From Anaerococcus tetradius ATCC 35098 (GTDB lineage Bacteria; Bacillota; Clostridia; Tissierellales; Peptoniphilaceae), in assembly GCF_000159095.1 (NCBI RefSeq), contig NZ_GG666295.1, forward strand, positions 532,827 through 596,826: 64,000 bases of DNA, written 5' to 3'. The notes under the pieces are model-generated. The model worked only from the letters and a program-made list of their open reading frames with translations, was not told where the DNA came from and searched no databases. The translations under genes and the position numbers were made by a program. Shown here piece after piece: positions 39,508 through 44,276 of the stretch. Every line of letters begins with the position of its first letter. Positions within the stretch are counted from its first letter, which is position 1.

Positions 39508-40287
39508 CTAATAATTGTTAAAAGAATCGCTTGTTCTGACCCTTTTTAATAGATATCTAAAGCATATCACTCCCAGAATTATCCATACTGCATTAGAAAT
39601 CAAATAATCAACTATTAAAGAGGCTTCTACACTCTGTCCCAAATACATCTGTCTCATTATTTTTATGCCCGCATTAAATGGGATTATGTTAAATAGTCTG
39701 CTTCTCACTTCGATCATATCTGATAAAAAAATCAACACTGATTGTAAAATAAATACTAGACTTCCTATTTCTTTTTCTATTAGGGATATACCTCCTAATA
39801 ATAGTCCAAGTCCGTACATACCTATTAATGCAGGGAAGGCTACTAGGTAAGATAATAATATGTATAAAATATCTTTTGTATCTGCCTTTATAGATAAAAT
39901 AAATATTAGGAAAATCACGAAAAAGCTTAAAAAGCTTATAAATAAATATGTAAGCATCTCAATAAAGAGTAATAGTTCTGCCGAATATTTGCTCTGCATT
40001 TTTAATTCAAGAGTTCCAGAAACAGACTGTCCCCTAATATTTGCTGAGCTCCAGCCTAGGGCAGTAGTCGATATTTGCCAAAATATAAAACCAATGAGAA
40101 CTATAATTTTCCCTGAATTAATGTCTATTCCATAAGAGTCGGCAAAGGCTGAGTCAAGACCTGTTATAAATATCGAAAATAATACAATGGCGAATATTAA
40201 TATATCTGTTACGAAGCTAACTTTATAACTTCTTATCTTTTTTATATCCAAACTAAGCTCGGTTTTGATTAAATTTATATAGTCCAT
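39508..40287 (-). CDS. ABC-2 type transporter permease (putative immunity/export)
   Basis: A 259-residue membrane protein with six hydrophobic helices and no other domain, like ABC-2 permeases (DrrB/LanE-type layout). It follows the ABC ATPase by eight bases and has AGGAG before its ATG, so the two form one transporter. Position behind a broken bacteriocin-like peptide gene and exporter suggests self-protection against an exported peptide, but substrate and direction are inference. The reading frame is intact. Confidence 0.82.
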   Translation of the reverse strand: MDYINLIKTELSLDIKKIRSYKVSFVTDILIFAIVLFSIFITGLDSAFADSYGIDINSGKIIVLIGFIFWQISTTALGWSSANIRGQSVSGTLELKMQSKYSAELLLFIEMLTYLFISFLSFFVIFLIFILSIKADTKDILYILLSYLVAFPALIGMYGLGLLLGGISLIEKEIGSLVFILQSVLIFLSDMIEVRSRLFNIIPFNAGIKIMRQMYLGQSVEASLIVDYLISNAVWIILGVICFRYLLKRVRTSDSFNNY

Positions 40288-40295
40288 ACTATCTC

Positions 40296-41012
40296 CTAAA
40301 TATTTGAGTTAACTTCCCTAAACTTTTCTCTTATTTCCTCATTGGTCATTTGTGAAGAATATTGATATGTATTTTTGCCTTTCGATATAAATGTATAGTT
40401 ATCTGCTATATCACTTATAAAATCTAGGTCATGGGTTGAGATTATAAATTTCCTATCTGTATCTTTTGCTACTTTCAGTATTATCTTTTGTAAATTGAGC
40501 TTGGCATCTATATCTAGACCATCAGAAGGCTCATCTAAAATAATTATTTTGCTATCCGAGCACAAGCAACACAATAAGGCAGCTTTTTTCTTCTCACCAG
40601 TAGATAGATCTCCAACATTTCTATCTCTAAACTCCTCCATTGATAATAATTTGCTATAGCTTTCGTACAATTCCTTCACCTTTTTGAAATCTATTCCTTT
40701 CAAGGCTCCGAAATATCTAACATTGTCATAAACCGAATTTCTAAATCTAAGGCCCCTATCTCCTGATTGTAAGAAGGATATATTATCCCTCGCCCAGATA
40801 GGATAGTACTTATCTTGGGAAGATGAATGTATTTCTCCGCTTTCGAAATAATAAATTCCAGATATGATTTTAAGAATAGTAGTCTTACCTGCACCATTTG
40901 GACCAATTAAGGCAAAAATATTATTATTATCGAAATTAATCGTCCATGTAAAATTATCTACCGCTAGTCTATTTTTATAATATCTACTTATATTTTTTAA
41001 TGTAATTTCCAT
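40296..41012 (-). CDS. ABC transporter ATP-binding protein
   Basis: A 238-residue ATPase with Walker A GPNGAGKTT near residue 38, signature DLSTGEKKK near 135, Walker B IIILDEPSDGLD near 155 and the switch His in ISTHDLD near 190. It pairs with the ABC-2 permease eight bases downstream. GGAG precedes the ATG. A hairpin at 41097-41126 separates it from the upstream exporter gene, so it may be transcribed on its own. All catalytic motifs are intact, in contrast to the two disrupted genes upstream. Confidence 0.9.
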   Translation of the reverse strand: MEITLKNISRYYKNRLAVDNFTWTINFDNNNIFALIGPNGAGKTTILKIISGIYYFESGEIHSSSQDKYYPIWARDNISFLQSGDRGLRFRNSVYDNVRYFGALKGIDFKKVKELYESYSKLLSMEEFRDRNVGDLSTGEKKKAALLCCLCSDSKIIILDEPSDGLDIDAKLNLQKIILKVAKDTDRKFIISTHDLDFISDIADNYTFISKGKNTYQYSSQMTNEEIREKFREVNSNI

Positions 41013-41126: not shown

Positions 41127-42713
41127 TTACAAATATTTAGTCTTTCTTTTGATATGAACAACTTTATCAAATTTATTAATCTTATCGTTACTCAAATTAT
41201 GGGCAATCACTATTAAACTTCTCTCATCCCTAAGCAGTATATCCAATATTTTGTCAACACTTTTCCTATCGAGAGAGGAAAATGGCTCATCTAAAATAAG
41301 TATATCGCTATCCTTATAAATAGCCCTTGCTATACTTATTTTCTGCATTTCTCCGCCACTTAAATTATCTCTATCTTCATTAACCCTTGTAGTTTTATCG
41401 AAGTCTTTAATATTTAATCCATCAATTATTCTATTGTATTTTTCCTTCAAATAAACTTCATTTCCTATTATATTATTACTTATAGTATCTTCTGTTAAAA
41501 TATATCTTTGACCTAAAAATGATATCCTTTTATAATATGACTCTTTATCTATGTTTTTTATGTTTATTCCATTTATAAATATGTTACCAACATGATTTCT
41601 GGAAAAATCTAGTATTGAAGAAATAAGCGTAGATTTTCCAGCTCCATTCTCCCCTACAATCAAGATTTTCTCTCCATAGTTAATTGAAAAACTAAAACTA
41701 TCACTTATAGGTTCAAGTTGATATTTGCAAGCATATTCGTCCACTCTTATTTCATCTATTGTAGATATTTTAAAATCGCCCTTAGATGTATTGGACCCAT
41801 TTATAATTTCAATTAGTTTTTCCCTTGTTTTCTTAGTCTTTGCAAACTTAGCATAAGTTCTGGAAAATGCATATATAGGAAGAGTTATAGAATCACAAGA
41901 AACTACAATCGCTAACAATTCAGAAATAGTGAGCTTACCATCAATAATCAAAACAACCCCTACAATATATAGACCAACCTCAATCAAACTAGCAGATGTC
42001 TGATTAATAACTTCTACCATATCTTCAGACAAATTCAACCTGAAAAGTTCCTCATTAGCTTCTATCGATGCCTTCTTAAACTTATATCTGAACTTGTCCT
42101 CTAAATTATAAATCTTTATCTCTCTAATATTATCAATACTTTCATTTAATATTTTTATGATTTTTGAAAACTTGGTATTGTATGAATATTGCTTATCTGC
42201 TAAAGTATTCGCAAGTAATTTTTGAATTATAAAAGTTAGAGTAGAGATGACTATCAAATATAGCAAAATCTTACCAGATAAGGAATATATAACTAGACTT
42301 GCACCCAGAAAAGACACTATAAAATAGACAATTTGAGTCAATCCCTGGATATAATCATTCGAAATCTGATCTATATCATTTGTAAAGATACTAGTTAAAT
42401 ACGATTTATCAAAGTTTAATCCATGCCTATCCAGCAAGCTTTCATAGACTCCCTCATTTAAGCATTGCTTACACATGATCATAAACTTATCCAAGTACTT
42501 TTCAGATAATAAATTAACCAAAAAGTACCCCAACAGATACAATAAGCCAGGTAATAGCAAATATCCAATATTAACTCCAGTTTATGATTTTGATAAATTG
42601 GTATAATAAATTATCAATTTAGAAAAAACTGGCCTACTCAAGGAGAATAATAACAAAAATATAAGGCTTTTGATAAACAATTTTTTATTTTTCTTAAAAA
42701 GATACACCAACAT
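41127..42713 (-). pseudogene. ABC exporter (fused membrane domain and ATPase) interrupted by an in-frame TAA
   Basis: Reading from the ATG at 42713 (AGGTG upstream), 43 codons encode a basic N-terminus and the first transmembrane helix (IFLLLFSLSRPVF). A TAA at 42582-42584 then stops the frame, and the same frame continues without further interruption for 484 codons. The continuation holds the other helices and a complete ATPase: VGENGAGKSTL, LSGGEMQKI, ILILDEPFSSLD and IAHNL. The whole would be about 528 residues, normal for a peptide exporter without a C39 protease domain. Downstream reinitiation would lose the first helix and no good ribosome site is seen. It follows the broken peptide gene by two bases. 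Confidence 0.8.
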
Positions 42714-42715
42714 TA

Positions 42716-42845
42716 CTACACACCTAAATATCTATAACATTTCGGATCACAACATTTATCATACTTATTATTAACAATCTTTTTTTCGACAAAACATCCC
42801 CCATTTCAAGAGTCTATTACTTCTTCTAAATTTTCTATTTTTCAT
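42716..42845 (-). pseudogene. Remnant of a small Cys-rich secreted peptide gene with double-glycine-like leader
   Basis: An ATG at 42845 has AGGA six bases upstream. As read, the frame stops after 24 codons. If one A is removed from the A5 run right after the ATG, the frame reads MKIENLEEVIDS, a TGA, then NGGCFVEKK and, further on, DKCCDPKCYRY, ending in TAG at 42716-42718. The order (acidic leader, Gly-Gly, Cys-rich core of about 27 residues) and the position two bases before an ABC exporter are those of a bacteriocin-like precursor. The frameshift plus the TGA make it a pseudogene. This reconstruction is mine and needs homologues to confirm it. Confidence 0.5.
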
Positions 42846-42905
42846 ATTTTCCTACTATTTTTATTATGAATATTCTCGATATAAGGATACAACAATATAT
42901 TCGAA

Positions 42906-42933
42906 TTTTCAAAGGCATATGTGCCTTTGAAAA
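42906..42933. promoter_or_regulatory. Perfect palindrome in the divergent promoter region (candidate operator)
   Basis: Arms TTTTCAAAGGCA and TGCCTTTGAAAA (12 bases each) flank TATG. It lies between the plus-strand peptide gene and the minus-strand peptide/exporter unit and overlaps the -35 box of the former. No T-run follows on either strand, so an operator is more likely than a terminator. The neighbouring HTH regulator is the obvious candidate binder. Confidence 0.65.
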
Positions 42934-42955
42934 AGTCATTAGTATTCTTTATTAT
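42927..42955 (+). promoter_or_regulatory. Promoter of the short hydrophobic peptide gene
   Basis: TTGAAA (42927-42932) and TATTAT (42950-42955) are 17 bases apart. The -35 box is inside the palindrome's right arm, so a protein bound there would block or recruit polymerase. Confidence 0.7.
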
Positions 42956-42978
42956 ATAAGGTAGACAGAGGTGATTTT

Positions 42979-43050
42979 ATGAAAAAATTTAAATTTTTAG
43001 CCATAGTCTTAGTCATGCTATTAACACAATTTTTGTATAATATCAATTAA
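42979..43050 (+). CDS. Short hydrophobic peptide (23 residues), candidate signalling peptide
   Basis: A strong ribosome site (AGAGGTG) and a good promoter precede a 23-codon frame. The peptide begins MKKFKF, continues with a hydrophobic core (LAIVLVMLL) and ends TQFLYNIN. Length and plan resemble the SHP-type pheromone precursors of Rgg systems, where the last 7-8 residues form the signal. An RRNPP-type regulator is encoded 290 bases downstream in convergent orientation. Alternatively the TAA at 43048 is a mutation: the same frame continues with SLADDEDN for 22 codons, giving a plausible signal-peptidase site. It could also be a small membrane peptide of other function. Confidence 0.5.
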   Translation: MKKFKFLAIVLVMLLTQFLYNIN

Positions 43051-43119
43051 TCTTTAGCTGATGATGAAGATAATATTATTATGATTAAATCTATTACATA
43101 TAAATCTGATTATATTTAA

Positions 43120-43337
43120 TTTTAAAAATTGACGTTTCTGGATAAATAAAATAGTCTAGCTCTTTCACTACTCTTACACTATATTAATCGTCCAATAATT
43201 ATTAAAAAACTCAATTGAATCTTTTTCTCGTATTCCTGAAGTATGAAACATACTTCAGGTATATCGGGCTAAATTTCCTAGGAAAGCTTTCTACTTTTAG
43301 GGCGATATTTATTTAGATTCCATTACTACTCTTCAGT
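43120..43337. other. Convergent intergenic region with an 11-base-arm inverted repeat
   Basis: The region between the peptide gene and the regulator contains CCTGAAGTATG-AAA-CATACTTCAGG at 43235-43259, a perfect hairpin without a T-run, and a weak A/T-rich hairpin near 43204-43228 that may end the regulator transcript. No coding frame with a ribosome site is seen. Confidence 0.6.
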
Positions 43338-44216
43338 TTATACCAGTATATTTTCTATTTTTTTATTCATTAGAACCTGTAAATCTTTATTTAAGATATT
43401 TTCCAATAAGACTTTTGCTACTGTTAATGGCTCTTCATAATTTTTATGAGCTCTATAACAAGCAATAAATTTTGCAAAATATAGGTATAAAAAAGCATCT
43501 ATCGATGAGTTTTCTCTTGAACATACTAGCCCTTCATTTGTTGTTTTAATAGCTTCTATATAATTTTTATTTACTATATTCCAATTAGCAAGGTTATTAC
43601 AAGTAGCTATTTTTACTATTTTATCTTTATCTTGATTTTTGCACTTATTAAATATCTCCACCCTATCAATTCCCTTAAAATCTTGGGAAGTGGTTGCTAT
43701 ATTTAATAATATGCGGAGGTCTATGCCTTGAAGGTCTAGATTTTCGAAGTTTTTTCTTTTGATCTTACTTGAGGATAGGTCCTCGTATATTTCACTTAAT
43801 TGTTCGCTAGTTACCTCACAGTTTAGATATCGTATAAATAGATCTAAGATGTCTATCTCGTATTTCCTTGCTTTTAGTTCTCTGCAATCTTTTATTAAGT
43901 CTATTTTTTCTAAAAGGTCTATTCTTATATCCTTTGTTAGAAACATTGCATTGATATCTAGTAAGTTCTTGATTTCTTCTAGTATGTAAAAACTTCCATA
44001 GATATATTTTTTGTATAGGGTTAAGATATCAATATTATATATTTTGGATAATTCAATTAGACTGTCTACGGATGGATTAAAAATTTCTCCTCTTTCTAGC
44101 CTACCTATTGTTCTTTGACTTATATCTGATATCTCTGCTACATCGGCCTGTCTTAGGCCTTTTACTTCTCTTATTTCTATTAATTTTTTGCCAAATTCTT
44201 TTCTTTCATCTGTCAT
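43338..44216 (-). CDS. HTH + TPR regulator of the RRNPP type (Rgg/PlcR/PrgX-like)
   Basis: A 292-residue protein. Residues about 5-62 are an XRE helix-turn-helix (LRQADVAEISDISQRTIGRLERG). The rest is helical and repeat-like (e.g. NLANWNIVNKNYIEAIKTTNEG and AKFIACYRAHKNYEEPL), as in TPR domains that bind short imported peptides in RRNPP regulators. Length fits that family. I start at the ATG at 44216, which has AGAGG upstream; a longer frame adds 20 residues without a ribosome site. Its promoter overlaps the rplS terminator. Target sites are probably the nearby palindromes; that is inference. Confidence 0.8.
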   Translation of the reverse strand: MTDERKEFGKKLIEIREVKGLRQADVAEISDISQRTIGRLERGEIFNPSVDSLIELSKIYNIDILTLYKKYIYGSFYILEEIKNLLDINAMFLTKDIRIDLLEKIDLIKDCRELKARKYEIDILDLFIRYLNCEVTSEQLSEIYEDLSSSKIKRKNFENLDLQGIDLRILLNIATTSQDFKGIDRVEIFNKCKNQDKDKIVKIATCNNLANWNIVNKNYIEAIKTTNEGLVCSRENSSIDAFLYLYFAKFIACYRAHKNYEEPLTVAKVLLENILNKDLQVLMNKKIENILV

Positions 44217-44247
44217 CTTAGCCTCTATGTATATATGATTTAATAAA

Positions 44248-44276
44248 ATAATATCATAAATCATGAAAATAACCAA
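44248..44276 (-). promoter_or_regulatory. Promoter of the RRNPP-type regulator
   Basis: On the minus strand TTGGTT and TATTAT are separated by 17 bases, about 30 bases upstream of the chosen start. It abuts the rplS terminator. Confidence 0.55.

Follow-up and report, generated by a model that had tools for sequence, protein, structure and literature searches.

With a probability that we put at about 0.8, the locus described here is a decayed pheromone circuit of the RRNPP class, similar to PlcR/PapR, that once switched on a streptide-like RiPP cluster. It lies in a stretch of 64,000 nucleotides of the Anaerococcus tetradius genome, referred to below as the window. In the best reading it is a switch of the PlcR/PapR type, unlike the Rgg/SHP control of streptide in streptococci, which has become mute and has no output in the window. 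The regulator and its operator have been kept; the pheromone gene is cut, the precursor and enzyme genes survive as stubs, and the exporter gene has an early stop. Comparison of the sequences supplies the gene order, the lesions, the homologies, the co-occurrence of operator and regulator and, for one pair of relatives, evidence that the peptide is under selection.

An earlier note on this DNA had proposed that a 23-codon plus-strand gene encodes the pheromone. This frame was found at 42979-43050 (+), together with its AGAGGTG ribosome site and MKKFKF start, but its product appears to be the signal-peptide stub of a longer precursor. It is the front part of a pheromone precursor pseudogene (42979-43119, +) of 46 codons plus stop, cut at codon 24 (43048-43050) by a nonsense TAA; in relatives this is a sense codon. 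Past this TAA the frame reads on as SLADDEDNIIMIKSITYKSDYI up to the next stop at 43117-43119, and this portion corresponds to the C-terminal part of the relatives' peptides. With an intact 46-aa relative as query, the pseudogene is the sole match in its own genome (E 1.4e-12, 61% identity); no second copy of the peptide was found there. The window differs from the G019/G020 gene at 20 of the 46 codons, including codon 24. The dN/dS against G020 is 0.98, a value that loss of the gene would lead one to expect, although relaxed or diversifying selection could also produce it. The stop sits just ahead of SLA (residues 25-27), the probable signal-peptidase site according to the AxA-type rule; the signal peptide itself was judged from composition. 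Since the stop precedes the cleavage site, the 23-codon gene would give at most a bare signal peptide. By comparison with relatives the stop is a lesion. It could in principle be a sequencing error, but the neighboring deletion and a second stop argue against this. Thus, the small secreted propeptide gene that accompanies RRNPP receptors is present in the window as a gene interrupted at codon 24.

In G019 and G020 the gene is intact, identical between the two, and has the same position and orientation as in the window, facing the regulator (MKKFRFLILVSLMFIMPFLSTMNESLADDEDNIVMIKSTTYISESI). The 46-codon frame is present at 3 of the 7 other orthologous loci (G019, G020 and G018, the last as MKKLKRFLFFVSLFAITYICFTNVSYAIYGNEDDIDIKSIECYSPI). 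G007 has nearly the same frame as G018 with ATA in place of the ATG start (L036:8213-8350), and may be silent or weakly translated. No 46-codon peptide gene was found at the regulator loci of G015, G006 and G001. Over the 46 codons, G007 and G018 show 8 synonymous and 2 nonsynonymous differences, one of the latter in the start codon. The dN/dS is 0.047, with a binomial p of 6e-5, and within codons 26-46 there are 3 synonymous and no nonsynonymous differences. Because synonymous changes dominate, and are the only ones in codons 26-46, the 46-aa product as a whole, rather than a 23-aa one, looks selected in this pair. An IKS motif is common to the window read-through, G019/G020, G018/G007 and G005, and is our best guess for the core of the signal.

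These observations bear directly on the view that the 23-residue peptide is itself a working pheromone of the SHP kind, with the signal in its C-terminal 6-8 residues. Its promoter and ribosome site are good, and shp1358, which controls streptide in Streptococcus thermophilus, also has 23 codons according to PMC7564271. However, no counterpart of the 23-codon frame exists beside any of the 7 orthologous regulators, the homology runs past the stop up to the relatives' own stop, and the exporter and cargo are broken as well. The supposed signal, QFLYNIN, was rejected: it aligns with PFLSTMN of G019 and G020 and so is not conserved, it lies within the signal peptide, and the part shared with relatives comes after the stop. 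Moreover, a search of the window's own genome for TIGR01716, the C-terminal family of Rgg, gave no match at E up to 10, while its control was positive (over the cut-off only in Lactococcus lactis among 14 control genomes). We consider this reading very improbable. The case shows that a short gene of attractive appearance may turn out to be what is left of a longer one; reading past the stop and comparing relatives changes the residues that one would synthesize as the signal.

The regulator itself is intact. Its open reading frame from a TTG codon covers 43338-44276 (-), and an internal ATG at 44216 gives a protein of 292 aa (43338-44216, -). The earlier note had called it an XRE-HTH/TPR-like protein, and both parts of that description stand. 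Pfam HTH_3 is matched at 3.5e-11. A Pfam TPR model is absent among the 7 Pfam families listed, so the TPR assignment rests on fold: in the AF2 model the C-terminal part is all-helical and forms a TPR-like helical domain, which Foldseek also recovers. The mean pLDDT is 75.6 for the best model (62.4, 61.0, 60.2 and 47.0 for the other four), and it falls below 50 at residues 1-9 and 15-48, that is, over most of the HTH part. With this model, Foldseek places PlcR-PapR first (E 7.7e-5, with a TM-score of only 0.52) as the sole match below 0.001, followed by apo PlcR, PrgX and ComR. VIA-align gives Z 17.2 for PlcR (200 residues, 3.4 A), 14.6 for ComR and 12.8 for Rgg3, values of 12-15 also being reached by unrelated TPR proteins such as LGN (up to 14.5). 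PlcR-PapR is therefore the top match in both searches; Rgg2/3 rank below PlcR and ComR, which by itself excludes nothing. RRNPP receptors are described in PMC10075063 as proteins of ~250-500 aa with an HTH and a TPR peptide-binding domain, and the 292-aa regulator agrees in size and in both domains. The RRNPP class of the regulator is supported, because the modeled fold is PlcR/ComR-like. What had been suggested as an RRNPP pheromone circuit thus survives in the class of the regulator and in a neighboring gene descended from a pheromone-like precursor, but the circuit is broken in the window.

A 28-bp palindrome, TTTTCAAAGGCA-TATG-TGCCTTTGAAAA (42906-42933), separates the pheromone gene from the former cargo operon and is the probable binding site of the regulator. 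Its first base, 42906, is also the first base of the region singled out by the earlier note. It overlaps the -35 hexamers TTGAAA of two divergent promoter-like sites, both recognized by consensus match only: the pheromone promoter TTGAAA-17-TATTAT (42927-42955, +) and the promoter of the former RiPP operon, TTGAAA-17-TATCCT (42884-42912, -). The former had been regarded as a good promoter. It does score 10/12 and ranks first among the 16 promoter-like sites of the scanned 1.9 kb, but shuffled sequence gives 12.4 such sites on average and the match alone is therefore weak evidence.

Across the 31 genus genomes, the core of the palindrome, CAAAGGC-N6-GCCTTTG, has 7 exact occurrences. Six of these are beside the regulator (G000, G001, G006, G007, G018 and G019); the seventh, in G020, lies where a 39-aa remnant of a second regulator ends, and the copy at the main G020 locus has one mismatch. 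Counted by genomes, the exact core is found in 7 of the 8 with a regulator ortholog and in 0 of the 23 without (Fisher p 3e-6, treating genomes as independent and ignoring relatedness). This count uses exact matches only, a choice made after the matches had been seen. With up to one mismatch, the N6 core occurs at 45 places in 19 of the 31 genomes (7 exact and 38 one-mismatch), and by coordinates only 1 of the 38, that of G020, is beside a regulator. A one-mismatch site in G007, which follows an unrelated lipoprotein-like gene, was set aside. The 22-bp form of the palindrome is unique in its own genome at up to 3 mismatches. Because the exact core tracks the regulator across genomes, the palindrome is likely its operator. 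An N4-spaced version of the pattern was tried and dropped: it occurs with up to one mismatch in 19 of the 31 genomes, and its only exact occurrence, in G005, is outside the locus. In G020, the remnant of the second regulator (L089:6188-6307) consists of an HTH start running into the exact operator core, with ABC exporter genes adjoining.

As single-stranded DNA the palindrome can also form a hairpin (z -6.4), as would be expected of a transcription terminator or an RNA hairpin. However, it is not followed by a T-run on either strand, the terminator scan lists nothing there, and neither the overlap with two -35 hexamers nor the association with the regulator fits such a role. We regard a terminator or RNA hairpin as highly unlikely and retain the predicted operator.

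On the other side of the operator, the minus strand carries the remains of the cargo operon. Alignment to G019/G020 identifies the first codons of a streptide-like precursor gene (42827-42845) and the 3′ remnant of a SuiB/StrB-like radical SAM gene (42716-42819). Next comes an ABC exporter gene (41127-42713), which has 528 codons in G019/G020 and is interrupted in the window by a TAA at codon 44 (42582-42584). The part of the exporter that is still open, 477 aa, matches Pfam ABC_membrane (2.9e-25) and ABC_tran (4.8e-30). About 1.36 kb of the G019/G020 sequence is missing at the junction 42819-42827, where the first codons of the precursor are joined to the 3′ end of the enzyme. A 41-base piece around this junction has a further match, in the middle of the enzyme gene, and the deletion may therefore have proceeded in more than one step. 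Thus, of the two genes by which a KxxxW cluster is recognized, the window contains a stub of the precursor and a 3′ remnant of the maturase; no other copy of the enzyme was found in the same genome (E up to 1e-25). The broken exporter is followed by genes for an ABC ATPase and a membrane protein (39508-41012). In G015 these two genes come straight after the regulator, which suggests that the whole pheromone-cargo segment has been deleted there.

What the former cargo probably looked like is seen in the relatives. Next to the pheromone gene, G019 and G020 carry a 32/33-aa precursor containing AKGDGW, a radical SAM gene and a 528-aa ABC exporter. Against NCBIfam TIGR04079 the KGDGW precursors give E 2e-5 and 4.8e-5, and both stay under the cut-off of the model (23.4 and 24.6 versus 35 bits); against the PDB the precursor had no meaningful match. 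In G019 the radical SAM gene is open (449 codons). Its product matches TIGR04080, the KxxxW maturase family, at 6.6e-61, with 206 bits against a cut-off of 500, and aligns over residues 9-427 of 449 (E 3.3e-54) with PDB 5v1q, which we take to be SuiB of Streptococcus suis. The cluster appears equipped to produce a small cross-linked peptide. Each of the three streptide-type loci carries at least one lesion. In G020 it is the radical SAM gene (L031:1603-2829) that is disrupted, by stops and a frameshift, the genes for regulator, precursor, pheromone and exporter all being open; in G019 the regulator carries a stop at codon 68. For comparison, mature streptide has been published as AKGDGWKVM (PMC12445099).

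Searches for the radical SAM gene (E up to 1e-25) found it in 2 of the 31 genus genomes, and the same 2 among 130 genomes of the family. It was found in none of 391 genomes of the class sample, a search that had no positive control and for which G019 and G020 were evidently not drawn. TIGR04080 had no match in 398 genomes of the phylum sample, with 1 of 14 control genomes positive; that genome is Lactococcus lactis, so KxxxW enzymes are known outside streptococci. In the plasmid collection, the enzyme had a single match (29.5%), in Macrococcoides canis. PMC13361665 lists streptides in four Streptococcus species, and our literature search found nothing linking streptide with Anaerococcus.

Other genomes have different genes behind the operator. 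In G007 there is a radical SAM gene, with WgkB as its best match in NCBIfam (1.8e-31; 109.5 bits versus a cut-off of 650). In G001 the cargo is an ABC exporter alone, and the exporter frame of G006 has 413 codons. In G018 the cargo is cut off by the contig end. One operator would therefore have served three different cargoes.

The regulator has an ortholog in 8 of the 31 genus genomes, the window's included, the other 7 being 60-84% identical to it. At E up to 1e-15 the regulator family was found in 12 of 130 Peptoniphilaceae genomes, all of them Anaerococcus. The regulator alignment includes 7 of the 8 sequences, that of G019 being omitted because of its stop. In 6 of the 8 genomes the regulator comes after a gene for a 115-aa protein, presumably ribosomal protein L19 (rplS). 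Taking all 17 homologous regulators, a convergent peptide frame passing our filter is present beside 6, the window's included, while the co-directional regions pass in none. The filter, which calls for an ORF with an SD-like site, a K/R-rich start and a hydrophobic core, was chosen after the peptides were known; it is passed by 2 of 3400 shuffled 900-base regions. These counts indicate that the 23-codon frame is more than a chance frame.

The same counts raise a different possibility, namely that the convergent peptide, rather than being the ligand of the regulator, is simply a small secreted peptide of an ordinary kind, such as an immunity or bacteriocin-like peptide. Consistent with this, 3 of the 7 orthologous regulators, and 11 of the 17 homologs overall, have no detectable peptide gene. 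However, the convergent placement is constant, the operator is shared and the regulator fold is PlcR-like, and the pairing recurs beside two more distant regulators. We think that an ordinary peptide is unlikely, and continue with the pheromone precursor.

It is also conceivable that the regulator is still a receiver, a signal-mute responder that hears the pheromone of neighboring cells with an intact gene. Its gene is open and constrained (dN/dS 0.25 against G020, computed with stop codons skipped and the G006 regulator pair left out) and the operator is intact. PlcR paralogs without peptide genes of their own have been hypothesized to respond to PapR or PapRa (PMC4147580). However, both genes served by the one operator found in this genome are broken, which would leave a receiver little to control, and the constraint on the regulator may predate the gene losses around it. 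To this possibility, too, we give little credence, and a decayed circuit is preferred.

How the intact circuit would have worked can be outlined from the precedents of PlcR/PapR and Rgg/SHP, from which we infer that the peptide is secreted, trimmed and re-imported and that a fragment of residues 28-46 activates the regulator. In relatives with an intact gene, the 46-aa precursor, with its Sec-type signal peptide, would be secreted and cut after residue 27; trimming of residues 28-46 would then leave a short peptide around the IKS motif. After re-import, this peptide would bind to the TPR regulator, which in its peptide-bound form would bind the CAAAGGC-N6-GCCTTTG palindrome between the divergent promoters. 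Binding would raise the expression of the pheromone gene, that is, autoinduction, and also that of the cargo operon with its KGDGW precursor, SuiB-like radical SAM cross-linker and ABC exporter.

Of the known systems, PlcR/PapR of the Bacillus cereus group is the best fold match. PapR is a 48-aa secreted peptide encoded by a gene adjoining plcR, and the regulator controls the peptide gene and binds a palindromic box (PMC4147580). Both systems have an HTH-TPR regulator (the PlcR PDB chain has 284 residues) and, next to its gene, a gene for a precursor of 46-48 aa with an N-terminal signal. However, the Anaerococcus peptide gene is convergent to the regulator, and the cargo is a RiPP cluster. 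The window's genome shows one operator even when up to 3 mismatches are allowed, which argues against a wide regulon. PapR and the Anaerococcus peptide, compared by inspection alone, showed no sequence match. In S. thermophilus, streptide is controlled by rgg1358 and the 23-codon shp1358 and encoded by strABC (PMC7564271). There the likeness is in the cargo: a KGDGW precursor, a SuiB/StrB-type radical SAM enzyme and an exporter. The likeness to SuiB extends over most of the G019 enzyme, whose TIGR04080 score nevertheless stays below the cut-off. In contrast, the Anaerococcus regulator lacks a TIGR01716 match, its precursor has 46 aa with a Sec-like signal versus the 23-aa SHP, and its exporter is a 528-aa ABC protein versus a 363-aa transporter (PMC7564271). 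The window stub resembles an SHP in being hydrophobic and 23 aa long, but its parent gene has 46 codons. The cargo is thus like that of streptococcal streptide, whereas receptor, precursor and exporter differ.

A wider reading, for which we see somewhat better than even odds, is that Anaerococcus possesses a PlcR/PapR-like switch distinct from Rgg/SHP, located downstream of rplS in 6 of 8 genomes. Its one conserved operator would drive exchangeable cargoes: a streptide-like cluster, a radical SAM cluster distantly related to WgkB, or an ABC exporter alone. The switch would have been dismantled repeatedly, with a different lesion in each lineage, the window being one silenced copy. If so, streptide-type chemistry has been wired to two classes of pheromone receptor in two distant host-associated groups. 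Anaerococcus would then also offer a peptide signal and an operator that can both be tested, along with a cross-linked peptide as predicted product.

Finally, the two more distant regulators (31% and 34% identical; G005 and G026) likewise face a convergent secreted peptide. In G005 it is a 40-aa peptide, MKKNILLLIAILLTLNVSTSYANDKKESTIIEIKSYKNLK, ending in EIKSYKNLK with the IKS motif. Its gene has a 22-bp palindrome of its own, AAAGTGACATCCATGTCACTTT, in an upstream region common to a divergent gene for a 214-aa secreted protein. Two paralogous regulators lie in tandem in G005 (L039:6038-9364), the first of which faces the 40-aa peptide. In G026 the peptide has 43 aa and a RumMC-like maturase (9.7e-114) is encoded nearby; no comparable palindrome was found within 350 bases upstream of the peptide. 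One Peptoniphilaceae cluster near an RRNPP candidate is counted in PMC10075063. Beside the RumMC-like maturase of G026 (L041:9427-11686) there is also a Cys-rich 59-aa precursor, weakly similar to Apre_1838 (E 1.6e-3).
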